64,000 bases of DNA from Thermomonas sp. (GTDB lineage Bacteria > Pseudomonadota > Gammaproteobacteria > Xanthomonadales > Xanthomonadaceae): contig NZ_JAMLIW010000004.1 of assembly GCF_023953935.1 (NCBI RefSeq), positions 203,867 to 267,866 on the forward strand, read 5' to 3'. The first letter of the stretch is position 1; each line of letters opens with the position of its first letter. The translations under genes and the position numbers were made by a program. The notes below the pieces were generated by a model. The model had not been told where the DNA came from. It searched no databases and saw nothing but the letters and a program-made list of their open reading frames with translations. This document shows positions 1,804 to 55,934 of this stretch, piece after piece.

Positions 1804-2808
1804 ATGAGCATCGAACAACTCGCCGAAACCGCCCGCGCCATGGTGGCGCCGGGCAAGGGCATCATCGCGATTGACGAGTCCGCCGGCACCTGCAAGAAGC
1901 GTTTCGACGGCGTCGGCATCGAAAGCACCGAAGAGAATCGGCGCGCCTACCGCGAGCTGCTGCTGACTGCGCCCAACGCCAACCAGTACCTGTCCGGCGC
2001 GATCCTGTTCGATGAGACGATCCGCCAGTCCACGCGGGACGGTGTGCCGTTTGCCAAGTACATGGCCGACAACGGGATGATCCCCGGCATCAAGGTCGAC
2101 AAGGGCACCCACCCGCTGGCGGGTTTTCCCGGTGAGGTCGTCACCGAGGGCCTGGACGGCCTGCGCGATCGCCTCAAGGAGTATTACCAGCTCGGCGCGC
2201 GTTTCGCCAAGTGGCGCGCGGTGATCACGATTGGTGACGAGACGCCTTCCGGCACCTGCATCGAAGCCAACAGCCACGCGCTGGCGCGCTATGCCGCGTT
2301 GTGCCAGGAACAGGGGCTGGTGCCGATGGTGGAGCCCGAAGTGCTGATGGACGGCGACCACGACATCGAGACCTGCTACGAGGTGACGGAAGTGGTGCTG
2401 CGCTCGCTGTTCGACGCGCTCTACAACAACAACGTGATGCTGGAAGGCACCATTCTGAAGGCGTCGATGGTCCTGCCAGGAAAGAACTGCGCAGAGCAGG
2501 CCAGCGTCGAGGAAGTGGCCGAAGCCACCCTGATGTGCCTGAAGTCGTCGGTGCCGGCGATCCTGCCGGGCATCGTGTTCCTCTCCGGTGGCCAAAGCGA
2601 CGAGGCGGCTACTGCGCATCTGGACGCGATGAACCGGATGGGCCCGAACCCGTGGCCGCTGTCCTTCAGCTATGGCCGCGCGATGCAGCAGGCGGCGCTG
2701 AAGCTGTGGGCGGCCGACATGACCGGCAACTACGCCAAGGCGCAGGCCACCGTGTTCGAGCGTGCCAAGGCCAATGGGCTGGCGGCGCTGGGGCAGTGGG
2801 AAGGCTGA
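1804..2808 (+). CDS. fba: Fructose-bisphosphate aldolase, class I
   Basis: Cleaves fructose-1,6-bisphosphate to dihydroxyacetone phosphate and glyceraldehyde-3-phosphate through a Schiff base, without metal. The protein has 334 residues. Class I hallmarks are GIIAIDESAGTCKKRF near the N-terminus, FAKWRAVI in the middle, EPEVLMDGDHD, and the Schiff-base lysine in GTILKASMVLPGK (about residue 219). Near the C-terminus FLSGGQSDEAAT and SFSYGRAMQQAALK complete the phosphate-binding part. The start at 1804 follows a TATAAT box; an in-frame upstream extension to 1729 would run through that promoter. It is followed by a strong intrinsic terminator. The animal-type class I enzyme beside pyk is an arrangement I associate with xanthomonads. 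Confidence 0.97.
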   Translation: MSIEQLAETARAMVAPGKGIIAIDESAGTCKKRFDGVGIESTEENRRAYRELLLTAPNANQYLSGAILFDETIRQSTRDGVPFAKYMADNGMIPGIKVDKGTHPLAGFPGEVVTEGLDGLRDRLKEYYQLGARFAKWRAVITIGDETPSGTCIEANSHALARYAALCQEQGLVPMVEPEVLMDGDHDIETCYEVTEVVLRSLFDALYNNNVMLEGTILKASMVLPGKNCAEQASVEEVAEATLMCLKSSVPAILPGIVFLSGGQSDEAATAHLDAMNRMGPNPWPLSFSYGRAMQQAALKLWAADMTGNYAKAQATVFERAKANGLAALGQWEG

Positions 2809-2833
2809 GCCGTCTTCGTTTTCGCAGCAGCAG

Positions 2834-2864
2834 AACGCCGGCCACGTGCCGGCGTTCCTGTTTT
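2834..2864 (+). terminator. Intrinsic terminator after aldolase
   Basis: A 9-bp perfect stem (AACGCCGGC / GCCGGCGTT) with a 5-base loop is followed by CCTGTTTT. It lies 25 bases after the aldolase stop and before the next gene, so the aldolase is probably monocistronic. Confidence 0.85.
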
Positions 2865-2910
2865 GGGCTACCGTGACAGCAGAACGGGCGTGGATCCGGA
2901 AGGTGGAGCG

Positions 2911-3276
2911 ATGGCCGCAACTTCGGCGCTGGTACAGCAGATCGTGGAAGCACTGGCGCGCGGCGACAAGATCACCGCGATCAAGCTGGCACGGCAGGCC
3001 CGCGGCGGTAGCTTGAAAGAAGCTGTCGAGTTGCTGGAATCAATGTCCGGCAACGATGCCAAGGGCATCCAGCTGCGGGTCCAGAAAGCGGTCGGTGCGG
3101 CCAGGGAGGTTGCAGGGCAGCACCATCAACAATCTCACGCCCAGACCATGCAGGCCGCGCGGCAGGCCAACAACCGCAAACCGACCGTGGTGATGGGAGA
3201 TTCGCCCGGCAGCATGCGCTGGGTGATGATTGTCCTGGGCCTGCTGGCCCTGGCGGTCTGGCTCATGCTGGGTTAG
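2911..3276 (+). CDS. Small membrane-anchored protein with ribosomal L7/L12 C-terminal-like domain
   Basis: A 121-residue protein. Residues about 8-50 resemble the C-terminal fold of ribosomal protein L7/L12: VQQIVEALARGDKITAIKL, then GGSLKEAVELLES, matching the helix-turn pattern in which a loop links two helices and ends in a Lys-Glu-Ala motif. A hydrophilic Gln/His/Ala linker follows, and the protein ends in one hydrophobic segment (WVMIVLGLLALAVWLMLG) that would be a C-terminal tail anchor. The start at 2911 has GGTGGAG just upstream. The true L7/L12 lies in the rplJL operon, so this is a repurposed domain, probably for protein-protein contact at the inner membrane. The function is unknown. 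It lies between a terminator and the efflux operon and may have its own promoter. Confidence 0.7.
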   Translation: MAATSALVQQIVEALARGDKITAIKLARQARGGSLKEAVELLESMSGNDAKGIQLRVQKAVGAAREVAGQHHQQSHAQTMQAARQANNRKPTVVMGDSPGSMRWVMIVLGLLALAVWLMLG

Positions 3277-3382
3277 TGCCCGAGATGGGGCGTTCCGAAT
3301 CCTGGTGCCGATCCAAACCGATGGCACGGGAAGGATTCACCTCGGACCCGTAGAATCGGCGGCTTCCCGGACGGGTTGGATC

Positions 3383-4453
3383 ATGGCGTTGCGTTCCGTA
3401 CATCTTGTTTATGCCGCGCTGCTGTTCGGCAGTCTCGGACTGGTCGCCTGTGGAAAGGACACCGGGGGTGGCCCCGGTGGACGCGGCAATACGCCGACGG
3501 CCGTCGCTGCCCAAGTGGTGCAGGAAGAGGACTGGACCGACACCCTGCAGGCATTGGGCACGGTGCGCGCGCATGAGGCGGTGACGGTGACCGCCAAGGT
3601 CAGCGAAACCGTGGATCGGGTGCATTTCACCAGCGGCCAGGAGGTCGCGCGCGGGGCGCCGCTGGTGACCCTGAGTGGCCAGCAGCAGCAGGCGCTGCTG
3701 GCGTCGGCGCAGGCGCAGCAGGCCGATGCGCAGCAGCAGTACCAGCGCATGAGCCAGTTGGCCGGGCAGCAGCTGGTGGCACGTTCGGCGCTGGACAGTG
3801 CGCGCGCCAGTCGCGATGCCGCCAGTGCCCAGGTCGCGCAGATCCGCGCCAACCTGTCGGATCGGGTGATCCGGGCGCCGTTTGCCGGCGTATTGGGAAT
3901 CCGCCAGGTCAGCCCGGGCGCGCTGGTGACGCCCGGCACGGTGATTGCGACCCTTGACGCCATCGCGCGCGTCTACGTCGATTTCCCGGTGCCGGAAACC
4001 GAATTGGCCGAAGTTGCACCCGGGCAGGCCGTCACCGGGAGGGTCGGCGCCTGGCCGGACCGAAGCTTCGCCGGCAGCGTCGAAACCGTCTCGGCGCGGC
4101 TGGACAGTGCCACCCGCGCCGCCACCGTCCGCGCGGACTTCCCCAACCCCGAGCGTCTGCTCAAGCCCGGCATGCTGGTCAACGTCAGCCTGGTTCGCGC
4201 CACCCGCCGGGCGATTGTCGTTCCGGAAATCGCGGTCCAGCAGGTCGGCGGTGAAACCTTCGTCTGGCGGCTCAAGAGTGACGGGACGGTCGAGAAGGCC
4301 GACGTGGTGGTGGGCGGTCGGGTTCCCGGCAAGGTCATGCTGCAATCAGGCGTCAAGCCGGGCGAGCGGATCGTGGTGGAAGGCACCGGCAAGCTGCAGC
4401 CGGGGATGGCGGTGGCAACCGACGCCAAGCCGGCCGCCGAGGCGGCGCGTTAG
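3383..4453 (+). CDS. RND efflux periplasmic adaptor lipoprotein (AcrA/MexA family)
   Basis: Membrane-fusion protein that links an RND pump to an outer-membrane channel. It has 356 residues. The N-terminus is a lipoprotein signal ending LGLVACGKD, so Cys23 would be lipidated. After a Gly-rich linker come the barrel-sandwich half motif ALGTVRAHEAVTVTAKVSE, a Gln/Ala-rich coiled-coil hairpin (about residues 100-165) and the second half with IRAPFAGVLGIRQVSPGALV. A beta-barrel and membrane-proximal domain complete it. The start at 3383 begins the signal peptide directly. The gene ends 3 bases before the pump gene, so the two form one transcript. No TolC-type gene is nearby; the outer channel must be encoded elsewhere. 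The substrate cannot be read from the sequence. Confidence 0.93.
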   Translation: MALRSVHLVYAALLFGSLGLVACGKDTGGGPGGRGNTPTAVAAQVVQEEDWTDTLQALGTVRAHEAVTVTAKVSETVDRVHFTSGQEVARGAPLVTLSGQQQQALLASAQAQQADAQQQYQRMSQLAGQQLVARSALDSARASRDAASAQVAQIRANLSDRVIRAPFAGVLGIRQVSPGALVTPGTVIATLDAIARVYVDFPVPETELAEVAPGQAVTGRVGAWPDRSFAGSVETVSARLDSATRAATVRADFPNPERLLKPGMLVNVSLVRATRRAIVVPEIAVQQVGGETFVWRLKSDGTVEKADVVVGGRVPGKVMLQSGVKPGERIVVEGTGKLQPGMAVATDAKPAAEAAR

Positions 4454-4456
4454 GCC

Positions 4457-7400
4457 ATGCGGCTGTCCGATCTTTCGATCAAACGGCCGGTGCTGGCCGT
4501 GGTGATGAGCCTGCTGCTGGTCGTGCTGGGATTGATGTCGTTCCTGCGGCTGACCCTGCGCGAGCTGCCGGCGATCGATCCGCCGATCGTCTCGGTGCAG
4601 GTGGATTATCCGGGCGCCTCCGCCGGCGTGGTCGAAACCCGCGTCACCAAACCGCTGGAGGATGTGTTGGCGGGAATCGAGGGCATCAACACCATCGATT
4701 CCAACAGTCGCAACGGCAGTTCCCGCATCAGCATCGAGTTTTACGCCAGCCGCGACATCGAAGCGGCGGCCAATGACGTGCGCAATGCCGTCAGCCGGGT
4801 CGCCGACCGCATGCCAGACGAGGCGCGCGCGCCCGAGATCACCAAGGTCGAAGCCGATTCCGACGCGATCATCTGGTTCAACCTGCGTTCGAGCAGCATG
4901 GACCAGATGCAGATGTCGGACTATGCGCAGCGCTACCTCGTCGATCGTTTCTCCAGCCTGCAGGGCGTGGCCCGGGTCTTCCTCGGCGGCAGCCAGCGCT
5001 ATGCCATGCGGATCTGGCTGGACGGCAATCGACTCGCCGCCCGCGGGCTGACGCCGGCGGACGTCGAACGCGCGCTGCGGGCGGAAAACGTCGAACTGGG
5101 CGCGGGCCGGATCGAGTCCACCGACCGCGATTTCATCCTGCGGGTGGCGCGTGACTACACCACGCCGGAGGCGTTCGCGCAGATGCCGCTGGGCAAGGGC
5201 AGCGACGGCTACGTGGTGCGGCTGGGCGACGTGGCGCGGGTGGCGCTGGAATCGGCCGAGCGCCGCGCCTATTACCGCAGCAACGGCGAACCGGCGATGG
5301 GCATCGGCATCGTCAAGACCTCGACCGCCAACAGCCTCGAAGTAGCCGAAGAAGCCAAGGCCGCGGCCGATCGGATCCGCCCGACCCTGCCGGCCGGCAC
5401 CGACATCTACGTCGCCTACGACAGCACCACCTTCATCTCCGCCTCCGTCGAGCGCGTCTACGAAACCCTGCTGGAAGCCATCGCGCTGGTGCTGCTGGTG
5501 ATCTGGCTGTTCCTCGGCAGCGTGCGCGCCGCGCTGATTCCGGCGGTCACGGTGCCGGTGTGCGTGATCGCGTCCTTCATCGCCCTGTATGCGTTCGGCT
5601 TCTCGATCAACCTGCTGACCTTGCTGGCGCTGGTGCTGTGCATCGGGCTGGTGGTGGATGACGCCATCGTGGTGGTCGAAAACATCCAGCGCCGCGTCGA
5701 TCTGGGCGAGCCGGCGCTGGTCGCCGCGCGGCGCGGCACCCACCAGGTCGGGTTCGCGGTGCTGGTCACGACCGCGGTGCTGATCGCGGTGTTCCTGCCG
5801 GTCGGGTTCCTGCAGGGCAATACCGGGCGGCTGTTCCGCGAGCTGTCGGTGGCGCTGGCCGCGGCGGTGGCGATTTCCGCCTTCGTCGCGCTGACCCTGA
5901 CCCCCATGCTGGCCTCCAAGCTGCTGCGCCCGCACGCCGGCCCGCATGCGGTCCATGAGAATCGCGCCAGCGTCTGGCTCAACGTCCGCTTCCAGCGCCT
6001 GGCCGACGGCTATCGGCGGGTGCTGGATCGCCACGTCCATCGGGTCTGGCTTTTCGGCGCCTTGATGCTGATGGCGCTGGTCGGCCTGCTGGCCCTGTTC
6101 AAGACCCTGCCCAGCGAACTGGCGCCGGCCGAGGACCGTGGTTCCTTCATGCTCAGCATGGAAGGGCCCGAAGGTGCCGGGTTTGATTACACCGTGGCGC
6201 AGATGAAGCAGGTCGAGGCGATCCTCGCCACCCAGACCGGACCGGGCAAACCGATCCTGCGCGCCAACCCGCGCGTGCCAGGCAGCTTCGGTGCCAGTGA
6301 GGAGATGCACACCGGGCGCGGCATGATTTTCCTGCAGCCTTGGGACAAACGCGACAAGAGCACCGCCGAACTGGCCAGCGAGCTGGAGCGCAAGTTTTCG
6401 GGCCTGACCGGCGTGCGCGTGCGCACCATGGTCGGTGGTGGGCTGGTACGCACCCGCGGCCAACCGTTCCAGCTGGTGCTGGGTGGGCCCGACTACAAGG
6501 AATTGGCGCAGTGGCGCGACATCATGCTGGCGAAGATGGCCGGGAATCCCGGCTTCGTCGGCCCGGATTCCGATTACAAGGAAACCCGTCCGCAGATGCG
6601 CGTGGTGATCGATCGCCAGCGCGCCGCCGATCTTGGCGTGTCCGCATCCGATATCGGGCTCGCGCTGCAAACGATGATGGGCGGGATTCGCGCCACCACC
6701 TTCGTCGACAACGGCGAGGAATACGACGTCATGCTGCAATCCGACCGCGCCGGGCGCGATTCGGTGGCCGCGCTGGATGCCTTGCAGGTGCATGGTCGCG
6801 ATGGCCTGGTGCCGCTGGCCAACCTGGTCAGCCTGCATGAAATCGCCGAGCCGGGCACGCTCAACCGCTTCAACCGGCTGCGTTCGATCACCCTGAGCGC
6901 GCGGCTGGCGGAAGGGTATCCCCTCGGCGACGCGGTGGCGTGGGCGCAGCAGACCGCGCGCGCCAGCCTGCCCGACTATGCGCAGATCAGCTGGAAGGGC
7001 GAATCCCGCGAGATGCAGCAGTCGGGTGGCGAGGTGCTGGTGACCTTTGCGCTGGCGCTGCTGATCGTGTATCTGGCGCTGGCGGCGCAGTTCGAGAGCT
7101 TCCTGCATCCGCTGGTGATCATGCTCACCGTGCCGCTGGGCGTGCTGGGTGCCTTGCTCGGGCTGTGGCTGACCCAAGGCACGCTCAACCTGTTCTCGCA
7201 GATCGGCATCGTGATGCTGGTGGGCCTGGCCGCCAAGAACGGCATCCTGATCGTGGAATTCGCCAACCAGTTGCGCGATGCCGGCCGCAGCATCCATGAG
7301 GCCATCATCGAGGCTTCCACCATTCGCCTGCGGCCGATCCTGATGACCTCGATCGCCACCGTGATGGGCGCCCTGCCGCTGGTGATCTTCGGTGGCCCGG

Positions 7401-19692: not shown

Positions 19693-21528
19693 ATGGCAGA
19701 CATCGAAAGCAAGGTCCCGGACATCGGCGGACACGACAATGTGCCGGTGATCGAGCTATTGGTCGCGGTGGGCGATACGGTCAAGAAAGATCAAGGTTTG
19801 GTGACACTGGAATCAGACAAGGCCACCATGGAAGTGCCGGCGGTGGCTGATGGCGTGATCAAGGCGCTGAAGGTCAAGCTGGGCGATAGCGTGTCGGAAG
19901 GCAGCGTGATCGCGGTGATCGATGCCGTGCTCCCCTCTCCCTCCGGGCAAGTGGCGACCGAAGCTGTTCTCCCCTCTCCCTCCGGGAGAGTGGCCGGGGG
20001 TGAGGGCGCGGCCGAGTCTTCACGCCCAACCCAGCCCTCACCCCAACCCTCTCCCGGAGGGAGAGGGAGTGAAACCACCGCGCCGCAGGCGGCTGCCGGC
20101 AGCGGACGCAAGGCCGATATCGAATGCGGCATGGTAGTGATCGGCGCCGGCCCCGGCGGCTATACCGCCGCCTTCCGCAGTGCCGACCTCGGCCTCGATA
20201 CCGTGCTGATCGAGCGCTACGCCACCCTGGGCGGGGTCTGCTTGAACGTCGGCTGCATCCCGTCCAAGGCGCTGCTGCATGCGGCGGACGTGATCGAGCA
20301 GGCGGCGCATGCAGGCGACTATGGCGTCGATTTCGGCAAGCCAAAAATCAGCATCGACAAACTGCGCGGCTACAAGGACGGCGTGGTCGGCCAGCTGACC
20401 AAGGGCCTGGCCGGCATGGCCAAGCAGCGCAAGGTGCGCACGGTGCAGGGCGTGGCGAAATTCATTTCAGCGAATGAGCTCGAAATCACCGGCAGCGACG
20501 GCAAGACCCAGCTGCTGCGCTTTGCCCATTGCATCATCGCGGCGGGCAGCCAGCCGGTGAAATTGCCGGCGTTCCCGTGGGACGACCCGCGCATCATGGA
20601 TTCCACCGATGCGCTGAATCTGGCCGAGGTGCCGAAGAAACTGCTGGTGGTCGGCGGCGGCATCATCGGGCTGGAAATGGCGACGGTGTACCGCGCGCTG
20701 GGTAGCGATGTCACCGTGGTCGAGTTCATGCCGCAGCTGATGCCGGGTGCCGATGCTGATCTGGTCAAGCCGCTGGCCGACCGCTTGAAGAAGCAGGGCG
20801 TGGCGGTGCATCTGAAGACCAAGGTGGTCGATGCCAAGGCGCAGAAAAACGGCATTGCCTGTTCGTTTGAAGGCGAATCGATTCCAGACGGCAAGATTTA
20901 CGACCGGGTGCTGGTCTCGGTGGGGCGCAGCGCCAACGGCGGCAAGCTGGATGCCGACAAGGCCGGTGTCGCGGTGGGCGAGCGCGGCCTGATCCCGGTG
21001 GATGCGCAGATGCGCACCAATGTGCCGCATATCTTCGCGATTGGTGATTTGGTCGGCCAGCCGATGCTGGCGCACAAGGCCACCCACGAAGGCAAGCTGG
21101 CGGCGGAAGTGGCGGCTGGCGAAAAGAAGGAATGGGTGGCGCGGGTCATCCCGTCCGTGGCCTATACCGACCCGGAAATCGCCTGGGTCGGCGTGACGGA
21201 AACCGAAGCCAAGGCCAAGGGACTGAAGGTCGGCGTGGGCAAGTTCCCGTGGGCGGCGTCAGGGCGTGCGATTGGGTTGGCGCGCACCGAAGGTTTCACC
21301 AAACTCATCTTCGATGAAGACAGTCATCGCGTGATCGGTGGCGGGATTGTAGGTGTCCACGCCGGCGAGTTGATCTCGGAAGTCGCGCTGGCCATCGAAA
21401 TGGGCTGCGAAGTCCATGACATCGGCCATACCATCCACCCGCACCCGACCCTGGGCGAGTCGGTGGGGATGGCGGCCGAGGTCTACGACGGCTCGATCAC
21501 CGACCTGTATATCCCCAAGAAGCGCTGA
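19693..21528 (+). CDS. lpdA: Dihydrolipoamide dehydrogenase (E3) with N-terminal lipoyl domain
   Basis: FAD flavoprotein that reoxidises dihydrolipoamide and reduces NAD+, the E3 of pyruvate dehydrogenase. It has 611 residues, about 135 more than plain E3, because of a lipoyl domain (1-77; lipoyl Lys43 in ESDKATMEVP) nearly identical in layout to that of AceF. The catalytic part starts at about residue 145: VIGAGPGGYTAAFRSAD (FAD), GGVCLNVGCIPSKALL with redox Cys183/Cys188, VVGGGIIGLEMATVY (NAD) and the C-terminal His-Glu in GHTIHPHPTLGESVG. Residues about 79-126 (repeated VLPSPSG, then QPSPQPSPGGRG) are encoded by REP-like palindromes inserted in frame. Lipoyl-E3 fusions are known, for example Neisseria P64k; the REP-coded linker is the oddity. 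AGGGTCCAG precedes the ATG. Confidence 0.96.
   Translation: MADIESKVPDIGGHDNVPVIELLVAVGDTVKKDQGLVTLESDKATMEVPAVADGVIKALKVKLGDSVSEGSVIAVIDAVLPSPSGQVATEAVLPSPSGRVAGGEGAAESSRPTQPSPQPSPGGRGSETTAPQAAAGSGRKADIECGMVVIGAGPGGYTAAFRSADLGLDTVLIERYATLGGVCLNVGCIPSKALLHAADVIEQAAHAGDYGVDFGKPKISIDKLRGYKDGVVGQLTKGLAGMAKQRKVRTVQGVAKFISANELEITGSDGKTQLLRFAHCIIAAGSQPVKLPAFPWDDPRIMDSTDALNLAEVPKKLLVVGGGIIGLEMATVYRALGSDVTVVEFMPQLMPGADADLVKPLADRLKKQGVAVHLKTKVVDAKAQKNGIACSFEGESIPDGKIYDRVLVSVGRSANGGKLDADKAGVAVGERGLIPVDAQMRTNVPHIFAIGDLVGQPMLAHKATHEGKLAAEVAAGEKKEWVARVIPSVAYTDPEIAWVGVTETEAKAKGLKVGVGKFPWAASGRAIGLARTEGFTKLIFDEDSHRVIGGGIVGVHAGELISEVALAIEMGCEVHDIGHTIHPHPTLGESVGMAAEVYDGSITDLYIPKKR
19930..20068. repeat. REP-like palindromic element cluster inside lpdA coding sequence
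   Basis: Three related units lie within 139 bases. A truncated unit is at 19930-19953, a full unit at 19969-20006 (CCCTCTCCCTCCGGGAGAG followed by GGGGGTGAGGG) and an inverted full unit at 20035-20068 (CCCTCACCCCAACC followed by CTCTCCCGGAGGGAGAG). Each contains a self-complementary core (CTCTCCC / GGGAGAG). The opposed full pair can fold into one long stem. The same family occurs at 54926 inside yheS. Such elements are normally intergenic. Confidence 0.85.
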
Positions 21529-53891: not shown

Positions 53892-55934
53892 ATGATTTCC
53901 TTCCGCAATTTCGCCCTGCGGCGCGGCGAACGCCTGCTGCTGTCCGACGTCGACCTGACCCTGCACGCCGGCTGGCGGGTGGGCGTGATTGGCCGCAATG
54001 GTGCGGGCAAATCTTCGTTGTTTGCTGCCCTGATGGGTGAGATCGAACCCGACAAGGGCGATCTGGACTTGCCCGGCAAGGCGCGGATCGCCAGTGTGGC
54101 GCAGGAAACCCCGCACCTGCCGAATCCGGCGATCGATTTCGTGCTCTCCGGTGATGCCGCCGTGCATGAAGCCATCCAGATGGAAGCCAATGCCTTCGCC
54201 AATGAAGATTGGGAAGCGGTGGCGCAGGCGCATCACCGGCTGGAGGAAGTGAACGGCTACGACGGCACCGCGCGTGCCGGCCGCCTGCTGCACGGGCTGG
54301 GCTTTCCGGCGGAGACGCATGAAAAGCCGGTCGCGGATTTTTCCGGCGGCTGGCGGGTGCGTCTGAACGTGGCACGCGCGCTGATGACGCCATCGGACCT
54401 GCTGCTGCTCGATGAACCCACCAACCACCTGGATCTGGATGCGGTGGTGTGGCTGGAAGAATGGCTGAAGCGCTACGACGGCACCTTGCTGGTGATTTCG
54501 CACGACCGCGAATTCCTCGACAACGTGACGACCCACATCCTGCACCTGCACGAGGGCAGCGCGAAGCTGTATTCCGGCAACTACACCGACTTCGAGCGCC
54601 AGCGCGCCGAGCACTTGCGCCAGCAGCAGATCGCGCACGAGAAGGAGCAGGCCGAACGCGCCCACCTGCAAAGCTTCATCGACCGCTTCAAGGCCAAGGC
54701 CAGCAAGGCACGGCAGGCGCAGTCCAGAATCAAGCGGCTGGCCAAGCTGGCCGGCACCGAAGCGGTGCGCGCCGAGCGCGCCTTGCATATTTCCTTGCCG
54801 GAGCCGCTGAAGCTGCCGAATTCCTTGCTGTCGCTGCACGAGGTGGATTGCGGTTATCCGCCCCTCTTTCACAAGGAATCAAGCGGCAGCGAGGATGTGC
54901 GGCGCAGAACGATTGCGGATGACACACCCCTCTCCCTCCGGGAGAGGGGCAGGGGTGAGGGTTCGGCGAGCGAGACTATTGCAGCTGCCGACGTACCCTC
55001 ATCCGGCGCTGCGCGCCGCCTTCTTCCGAAGAGAGAAGGAAATGGCACCGTCATCCTCCACAACGCCAGCTTCGCCCTCGAAGCCGGCGACCGCATCGGC
55101 CTGCTCGGCCCGAATGGCGCGGGCAAATCGACCCTGGTGAAAACCCTGGTTGGCGAATTGGCGCCAATGTCCGGCGAACGCAAGGCGCACCCGGACCTGC
55201 GCATCGGCTACTTCGCCCAGCACACGGTGGAATCGCTGGTATTCGGCACCACTCCGCTGGATCACCTGCGCAAGCTCGACGCCGATGCGCCCAACCAGGT
55301 GCTGCGCGATTTTCTCGGCAAGTGGAACTTTCCCGGCGACCGTGCATTCGAGGTCATCGACACCTTCAGCGGCGGCGAGAAGGCGCGGCTGGCCTTGGCG
55401 CTGATCGCCTACCGTCGTCCGAATGTGCTGCTGCTCGACGAACCCACCAACCACCTCGATCTGGACATGCGCGAAGCGCTGGCCGAAGCCCTGAGTGATT
55501 TCGATGGCGCCATCGTGATGGTCAGTCACGACCGCCATCTGATCGGCCTGGTCTGCGACAGCTATTGGCGCGTGGCCGGCGGCAAGGTTGAGCCCTTCGA
55601 TGGCGATCTGGACGAATACGCGGCCTGGCTGCGCTCGCGGCCGGGCAGCGACACTCCAAAGACGCCGGCGCCCAAGCGCGAGCCCAGCGTGACCACGCCC
55701 GTGTCCGTGCCGGCGGCTACTGCGGGCAAGACCAGGATCAATCCGCACAAACTGCAGAAGGCCGAGGCCCGGGTCGCGCGGCTGGAGGAAAAGCTGGCCG
55801 AATGCAACGCGCTGATGGTCGATCCGGCGGTCTTTTCCGATGCGGGCAAAGTCGCCGACCTTGGCCGCCAGCAGATGCAGCTACGCAGTGAGCTGGATGC
55901 CGCAGAAGCCGAGTTGCTGGCGCTGTACGGCTAG
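53892..55934 (+). CDS. yheS: ABC-F family ATPase YheS with REP-derived insertion
   Basis: Soluble ABC-F protein with two ATPase domains; family members act on ribosomes. It has 680 residues (E. coli YheS 637). Domain 1 has the P-loop GRNGAGKSSLFA, signature FSGGWRVRLN and LLLDEPTNHLDLDAVVWLEE. A basic linker precedes domain 2, with GPNGAGKSTLVK and FSGGEKARLALAL. The C-terminus (about 600-680) is a coiled coil with RVARLEEKLAECNALM. Residues about 324-383 interrupt the first strands of domain 2 (between HEVDCGYPP and GTVILHNASFALEAGD) and are encoded largely by a REP-like repeat at 54926-55039. A TTAAAAT box ends only 7 bases before the ATG, so the message could be leaderless. Confidence 0.93.
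   Translation: MISFRNFALRRGERLLLSDVDLTLHAGWRVGVIGRNGAGKSSLFAALMGEIEPDKGDLDLPGKARIASVAQETPHLPNPAIDFVLSGDAAVHEAIQMEANAFANEDWEAVAQAHHRLEEVNGYDGTARAGRLLHGLGFPAETHEKPVADFSGGWRVRLNVARALMTPSDLLLLDEPTNHLDLDAVVWLEEWLKRYDGTLLVISHDREFLDNVTTHILHLHEGSAKLYSGNYTDFERQRAEHLRQQQIAHEKEQAERAHLQSFIDRFKAKASKARQAQSRIKRLAKLAGTEAVRAERALHISLPEPLKLPNSLLSLHEVDCGYPPLFHKESSGSEDVRRRTIADDTPLSLRERGRGEGSASETIAAADVPSSGAARRLLPKREGNGTVILHNASFALEAGDRIGLLGPNGAGKSTLVKTLVGELAPMSGERKAHPDLRIGYFAQHTVESLVFGTTPLDHLRKLDADAPNQVLRDFLGKWNFPGDRAFEVIDTFSGGEKARLALALIAYRRPNVLLLDEPTNHLDLDMREALAEALSDFDGAIVMVSHDRHLIGLVCDSYWRVAGGKVEPFDGDLDEYAAWLRSRPGSDTPKTPAPKREPSVTTPVSVPAATAGKTRINPHKLQKAEARVARLEEKLAECNALMVDPAVFSDAGKVADLGRQQMQLRSELDAAEAELLALYG
54926..55039. 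repeat. REP-like palindromic pair inside yheS coding sequence
   Basis: Unit 1 (54926-54961) has CCTCTCCCTCCGGGAGAGG then CAGGGGTGAGGG, the same family as in lpdA. Unit 2 (54994-55039) is an opposed, diverged unit: ACCCTCATCCGGCGCTGCGC, then CTTCTTCCGAAGAGAGAAGG. Both units end in self-complementary cores. The whole is read in frame as a Ser/Arg/Gly-rich segment. Confidence 0.82.

Follow-up and report, generated by a model that had tools for sequence, protein, structure and literature searches.

Palindromic repeats read in frame within genes are described from Rickettsia and other bacteria, among them the RPE, repeats of about 150 bp that lie in frame in unrelated Rickettsia genes (PMC10969869, PMC3733652). 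One of these sources also reports that recB of Xanthomonas campestris and that of X. oryzae carry different REPs at roughly one site, and ties the GTAG REPs to RAYTs (PMC3733652). For Xanthomonas, GGGAATC G-quadruplex repeats are described as well (excerpts of PMC4692102). The DUF559 domain is often found in Vsr-like nucleases, and the Caulobacter protein VsrA (CCNA_02930), which carries a DUF559 domain, is held responsible for the SOS response without ScmA (excerpts of PMC12907096). A search of titles and abstract openings in the open-licence literature found no paper linking DUF559 to palindromic repeats and none describing inserts in YheS.

Here, we describe a C-rich palindrome family in a Thermomonas genome, based on a contiguous stretch of 64,000 nucleotides (the window) in which the family lies in frame in two genes, yheS and lpdA (Table 1). 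The product of yheS, an ABC-F translation-factor ATPase by sequence, has two ABC domains, and its top PDB matches, 9vvi and 9nlh, are both chains named YheS; on these two grounds we assign it to YheS. Its match to PRK10636, the nearest NCBIfam equivalog, which we take to stand for YheS, reached 610 bits, below the cut-off of 917. The alignment to 9vvi spans both halves of the protein and omits residues 323-382, which have no counterpart in the best matches from other Thermomonas genomes either. The initial annotation, made from the sequence alone, had estimated an insertion of about 60 residues, and tblastn against the Thermomonas genomes gave exactly 60 codons. It had also named disruption of the gene as a possible objection; the frame runs unbroken through all 680 codons. 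An assembly error or a pseudogene is hardly conceivable as the source of the insert, given the intact frame, the position in the contig interior, flanks that match, and the recurrence of such inserts across many genomes.

Table 1. Features of the window discussed in the text (position 1 is the first nucleotide of the window).
Feature	Position	Strand	Remarks
lpdA (lipoyl domain, linker, dihydrolipoyl dehydrogenase)	19693..21528	+	Besides yheS, the other gene of the window in which the family is in frame
Opposed palindrome pair in the lpdA linker	19971..20067	+	Units 19971-20012 and 20067-20035
yheS (ABC-F ATPase)	53892..55934	+	680 codons, single intact open frame; best PDB matches are chains named YheS
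Tyr322 codon, ABC domain 2	54855..54857	+	Insertion point directly 3′ of Tyr322
yheS insert (60 codons, residues 323-382)	54858..55037	+	Part unmatched in the best tblastn matches to other Thermomonas genomes
5′ part of the yheS insert (about 69 bp)	54858-54926	+	Upstream of the repeat-derived part, which begins near 54926
First palindrome, C-rich family, with G-rich flank	54926..54961	+	Encodes PLSLRERGRGEG
Second palindrome, opposed and diverged	54994..55039	-	Encodes VPSSGAARRLLPKREG

The 17-mer CTCTCCCTCCGGGAGAG, previously noticed in yheS, lies at 54930-54946 within the first palindrome. The genome contains eight copies of it and none of its reversed pattern, which served as a control. 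The opposed and diverged second unit was likewise recovered, the segment 54996-55041 matching another genomic copy at 93% over 46 bp. Both lpdA units belong to the family of the yheS insert, with 88% over 42 bp (19971-20012) and 91% over 34 bp in opposed orientation (20067-20035), so that one family is indeed present in frame in two unrelated proteins, as had been proposed. For the 5′ part of the insert, no convincing repeat match was found among the loci examined, the best covering 22 bp at an E value of 0.017; the boundaries of the yheS inserts are blurred through later change. As RNA, the first palindrome (54922-54962) is predicted to form a hairpin of -23.4 kcal/mol. Rfam at gathering thresholds gave no match within the window, and ARAGORN no tRNA.

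G321 and Y322 are invariant in the 42 aligned YheS sequences, and we take Tyr322 to be the nucleotide-binding A-loop tyrosine of ABC domain 2. An AlphaFold model of the window's YheS, made with 42 rows, keeps both ABC domains and gives residues 326-383 pLDDT values below 50, with averages of 89 for the blocks 311-320 and 391-400. Its pTM is 0.42, so the placement of the domains in it is not to be trusted. The insert falls between the modeled strands 313-322 and 386-396, consistent with the earlier view that it splits beta-strands of ABC domain 2 and might form a surface loop: it is modeled as a low-confidence loop at a beta-hairpin turn, next to the nucleotide-binding tyrosine.

A genome search with the yheS palindrome pair returned 82 matches, which were merged by hand into at least 34 sites at E values of 0.01 or better, a lower bound for the family, as 40 of 106 first-look candidates were scored. 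Thirteen of the 34 detected sites lie in frame within 11 genes, namely, yheS, lpdA, mpl, mfd, hrpB, murL, icmF, and those for an RND permease, pyruvate dehydrogenase E2, a tviB-like protein, and an MmeI-type methylase, the last with three sites. Eleven of the in-frame sites come from a coding-score script trained on four window frames only, which makes the split between sites inside and outside genes approximate, and two more lie in the methylase frame with Pfam domains on both sides. One further candidate host gene, miaA, was dropped, the element lying beyond the matched domain. By eye, palindrome-like peptides may also be present in the lipoyl-E3 linkers of LpdA in several genera (L193, L198, L203, and L204); these were left uncounted because natural Ala/Pro linkers blur them. 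The initial annotation had called for a count of copies inside and outside genes and had suggested that reading through such repeats is a recurring source of protein segments. The 13 in-frame sites, together with the repeated filling of the yheS site across the family described below, support this suggestion.

We compared YheS across 25 Thermomonas genomes, 24 of which have an orthologue (G022 gave a paralogue-level match only). In 22 of the 23 orthologues other than that of the window, there is no insert, and five residues separate the tyrosine from the next strand; the one exception, G015, carries an inverted-repeat insert of another kind at that codon. We then included the 80 best of 566 loci found in named records and removed nine duplicates, which gave a family sample of 95 yheS genes. 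The extra length of the window's protein relative to its relatives turned out to be part of a wider pattern: 59 of the 95 aligned genes have inserts of at least three residues directly after the tyrosine, with a net extra length of 3 to 62 residues, and none of the 95 orthologues has an insert of that size elsewhere in reference residues 1-530. No conserved domain, which the initial annotation had considered as an alternative occupant of the site, was seen in these orthologues.

The 59 inserts were sorted into 25 C-rich ones (sub-classes F1, F2, F3, and F7), 7 GTAG-type REPs, 8 G-rich heptamer-like repeats, 2 of sub-class F6, and 17 unclassified, the sub-classes being assigned by hand. BLAST linkage alone joined the C-rich inserts, together with that of L073, into one group of 26, the GTAG and F6 inserts into one group of 9, and the G-rich inserts into a group of 8, leaving nine further inserts single. 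Class F1 is present at the site in both orientations, in different lineages. Seven inserts were searched for in their own genomes and all had further copies (at least 8, 6, over 30, about 41, 8, 1, and 6), the single further copy being that of the F6 insert of L136 among the matches listed. All 46 inserts of at least 60 bases are, necessarily, open in the frame used; any one of the remaining five frames is open as well in 26 to 36 of them, so such elements are easily read through. In L102, the insert appears by eye to consist of a GTAG-type REP pair plus a second repeat, F6, suggestive of two inserts having built up at the site. The matched yheS stretch of L089 (Rehaibacterium terrae record, 2501-4528) contains one stop codon.

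To count how often the content of the site has changed, we used a YheS tree built without the insert by a quick method, in which 33 of 119 inner branches are poorly supported. On 96 classified rows, with 26 unclassified of the 122 labeled rows set aside, at least 21 class changes are needed with coarse classes and 26 with the hand-assigned sub-classes; including the unclassified inserts raises the counts to 32 and 35, respectively. At the level of the order, 18 of 27 parsed rows have a turn of six residues or fewer, and nine have longer, unclassified turns. The codon after the tyrosine holds repeats of several classes and, by these comparisons, has been filled many times in the family. A single insertion in an ancestor of the family, later decayed, replaced, or lost, would fit the mere 11 changes in presence or absence of an insert on the tree (122 rows) and the peptide pieces, such as GEG, common to many inserts. 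We consider it very improbable, however, since the two Thermomonas inserts are nested in a clade otherwise having the exact five-residue turn, and the inserts differ in class and, within one class, in orientation, to the extent that the classes need at least 21 changes.

The concentration of inserts at one turn could also mean that they were selected for a function. They might, for instance, act as a tether or sensor close to the nucleotide site of ABC domain 2, or form a hairpin in the mRNA that tunes YheS translation. The insert adjoins the A-loop, inserts are found in as many as 59 of 95 genes, and the palindrome pair is predicted to fold strongly as RNA (-67.9 kcal/mol over 124 bases, a single value with no shuffled comparison). 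Nevertheless, no sequence or length is common to the inserts, and whole clades have none, which makes selection for such a role improbable. In the reading that we favor, elements arrive repeatedly at a tolerant turn: the turn would hold tens of disordered residues with the fold unbroken, so that selection would keep in-frame inserts there and remove them elsewhere in YheS. Tolerance, and not target choice, would then probably be behind the single site.

The C-rich palindromes are not confined to gene-less copies. The window's genome has two DUF559 genes, each with family palindromes on both sides, and DUF559 genes were found in 4 of the 25 Thermomonas genomes, including both with yheS inserts; in the family sample, 50 of 79 genomes have DUF559. 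Searches of the genus and the family yielded 35 DUF559 loci, ranked by domain score with the flanks playing no part, 34 of which had at least 300 bp on each side for a flank test. A palindrome from the library of yheS inserts was present on at least one side in 32 of the 34 loci and on both sides in 26. Left-right inverted repeats, with a median of 43 bp and 90% identity, were present in 28 of 34, giving these loci the layout of an insertion sequence, with one gene between terminal inverted repeats. None of the 34 loci lacked both the palindrome and the inverted repeat. As controls, the palindrome was found in 1 of 296 windows of 500 bp near yheS, and inverted repeats in 0 of 74 loci around yheS; mismatched left-right pairs of DUF559 loci passed in 48 of 204 cases, as end classes are common to several genomes. 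In a second set of 24 DUF559 loci, from genomes with known yheS inserts, 23 had a palindrome on at least one side, 16 had it on both, 18 had inverted repeats, and one had neither.

In 28 of 32 loci, the end class agrees with that of the closest relative by DUF559 sequence (shuffled mean, 14.2; maximum, 24), a correspondence that may partly reflect host kinship. The alignment columns D46, E57, D59, and H63 are invariant in all 53 DUF559 sequences, and these residues presumably have a catalytic role. Taken together, the C-rich palindromes appear to be the termini of a little-known mobile element centered on a gene for DUF559 (PF04480), a Vsr-like nuclease. This link, like the recurrence at a single site in YheS, goes beyond what the initial annotation had observed.

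Alternatively, the palindromes may have been spread passively by another enzyme, such as a RAYT-type transposase, or by replication errors, with DUF559 being a passenger or a favored landing place and the insert in YheS doing little harm. The window's genome does contain one Y1_Tnp gene (PF01797; L149, G000:C9:70728-71054), and GTAG-type REPs, which are tied to RAYTs (PMC3733652), occupy the same yheS codon. However, no family copy was seen by eye in the flanks of the PF01797 gene, and the detected sites, at least 34 in number, are all more than 5 kb away from it; each of the two DUF559 genes of this genome, by contrast, has family copies on both sides. The inverted repeats at both ends in 28 of 34 loci and the kinship-following end classes also speak against a mere passenger, and we regard passive spread as unlikely.

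The yheS inserts were also compared with the ends of DUF559 loci from their own genomes. Across 17 genomes, C-rich yheS inserts matched own-genome DUF559 ends with a mean of 52.5 bits, compared with 34.4 in permuted pairings, and 0 of 5,000 permutations scored as high. The own genome ranked first in 5 of the 17, and L137 and L144 had no match, part of the DUF559 loci of those genomes having been compared; the DUF559 locus of L137 lies at a contig end. In G015, the insert arms match the ends of its DUF559 unit L223 at 95% over 43 bp and 94% over 50 bp, and show no match to its other unit, L221. The insert of the window's genome (G000) matches its unit L219 at 93% over 46 bp. A MITE is recognized by ends that match those of a gene-bearing element of the same genome, and such ends were found in G015, in G000, and in the 17-genome permutation; judged by these alignments, the G015 insert is to L223 what a MITE is to its parent element. 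Of 16 genomes with C-rich inserts, 15 have DUF559, but so do 7 of 10 genomes whose inserts are of other types (in one of the seven, as a weak fragment), which speaks against a simple picture. A GTAG or G-rich repeat was the best match for none of 32 classified DUF559 flanks. Since the yheS codon also holds GTAG and G-rich repeats, as well as F6 and 17 unclassified inserts of the 59, the site is not a target of DUF559 as such.

We therefore propose, with a probability of roughly 0.7, that the yheS insert is a putatively translated, gene-less, MITE-like derivative of a DUF559 element that landed in a turn tolerating inserts. The full element would consist of a DUF559 gene framed by terminal inverted repeats, some 40 bp long and each with a C-rich palindrome, and the derivative of the two element ends with a short spacer between them, in the manner of a MITE or BIME. 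One such derivative would have inserted, with the reading frame kept, into the tight turn that follows the A-loop tyrosine in ABC domain 2 of YheS. Inserts at this turn would decay over time while others of different classes arrive. DUF559 probably cuts DNA to move the element; our guess for this step is that the nuclease cut is repaired with element DNA, as in homing. The insert-bearing YheS is presumably made and working.

DUF559 genes themselves also reside in frame inside other genes. We collected 14 DUF559 loci in long open frames and scanned ten of them with Pfam. In G000 and G197, DUF559 separates the target-recognition domain of an MmeI-type methylase from the C-terminal domain; L255 shows this placement in another genus than that of G000. 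A second frame of G197 has DUF559 in another MmeI-type gene. The G000 frame (L253, G000:C11:59300-65600, minus strand 2095-5223) has its DUF559 between palindromes and is the methylase with three in-frame sites. In G165, G203, G163, and G115 (L262, L264, L265, and L266), DUF559 occupies a single position close to the beginning of a Mur-ligase-like (cyanophycin-synthetase-like) gene, which in a 12-genome sample has DUF559 in three genomes and lacks it in nine, including the window's. The seven in-frame copies from methylase and Mur-ligase genes group together in the DUF559 tree as a single supported clade (SH-aLRT, 97). No splicing domain of the intein type was found in the ten scanned frames, in which Pfam at E values of 1e-6 or lower gave host domains and the nuclease models PF04480 and PF18741 only. 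Three other long DUF559 frames, with SpoU, TilS, and EpmA domains, fall outside the in-frame clade and may be fusions at the gene start or chance read-through.

Similar arrangements extend beyond the family. Among the 38 plasmid records with DUF559 relatives, we examined ten. Left-right inverted repeats with E values below 1e-5 were present in six of the ten (Sinorhizobium, Azospirillum lipoferum, two Deinococcus, Sphingomonas, and Novosphingobium), a count made with no separate control; the Picosynechococcus locus had a weak inverted repeat, and those of Azospirillum brasilense, Azospirillum TSH58, and Synechocystis had none. A viral collection contained one DUF559 locus, which also has inverted repeats. 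The repeats around these plasmid and viral genes (L319-L329) contain hairpins and differ in sequence.

We lean slightly toward a more general reading, in which DUF559 genes with palindromic terminal inverted repeats would be a widespread mobile class unrelated to RAYTs, with its gene-less copies accounting for the C-rich palindromes found in Lysobacteraceae and perhaps in bacteria beyond them. Its ends, readable as disordered peptide, would allow life inside coding genes; one nuclease clade would have specialized in in-frame residence without a splicing domain, in the MmeI-type methylase and the Mur-ligase-like gene, and the YheS turn would be a recurrent docking site. To our knowledge, no mover is established for short bacterial palindromes outside the RAYT group, and a nuclease gene between matching palindromes offers a testable candidate for this large orphan group. 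If DUF559 is shown to move the palindromes, it would be justified to call this class of elements new. The YheS site, for its part, is a natural experiment on segment gain, with one turn, many insertions, known donors, and empty sister sites. The findings also call for caution with annotated proteins, in which a DUF559 domain or a low-complexity segment rich in GEG can be mobile DNA that is translated.

The yheS insert resembles the RPE in being a palindromic repeat in frame in an intact gene. It differs in that one codon is refilled by different repeat classes and in that the C-rich palindromes are also the ends of a gene-bearing unit, whereas the accessible parts of the RPE sources name no mobilizing gene (PMC10969869, PMC3733652). 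With the REPs of Xanthomonas recB, it shares the reuse of about one intragenic site, which concerns two species there, but 59 of 95 genes and several repeat classes in yheS. The GGGAATC repeats, as excerpted (PMC4692102), resemble the G-rich inserts in 8 of the 95 genes, but differ from the window's own insert family. Caulobacter VsrA has the same DUF559 domain; its predicted role, however, is in mismatch repair, and the excerpts describing it do not mention palindromic ends (PMC12907096). The REP/RAYT systems (REPtrons, GTAG REPs) are alike in that short palindromes, often in opposed pairs, flank and match a nuclease gene and spread gene-less. Nevertheless, the combination of a GTAG foot and a neighboring Y1 transposase gene that marks RAYT-associated REPs was not found for the yheS palindromes: by eye, the C-rich palindromes are without a GTAG foot, and the gene between them encodes DUF559, where that of the REP systems encodes a Y1 transposase.
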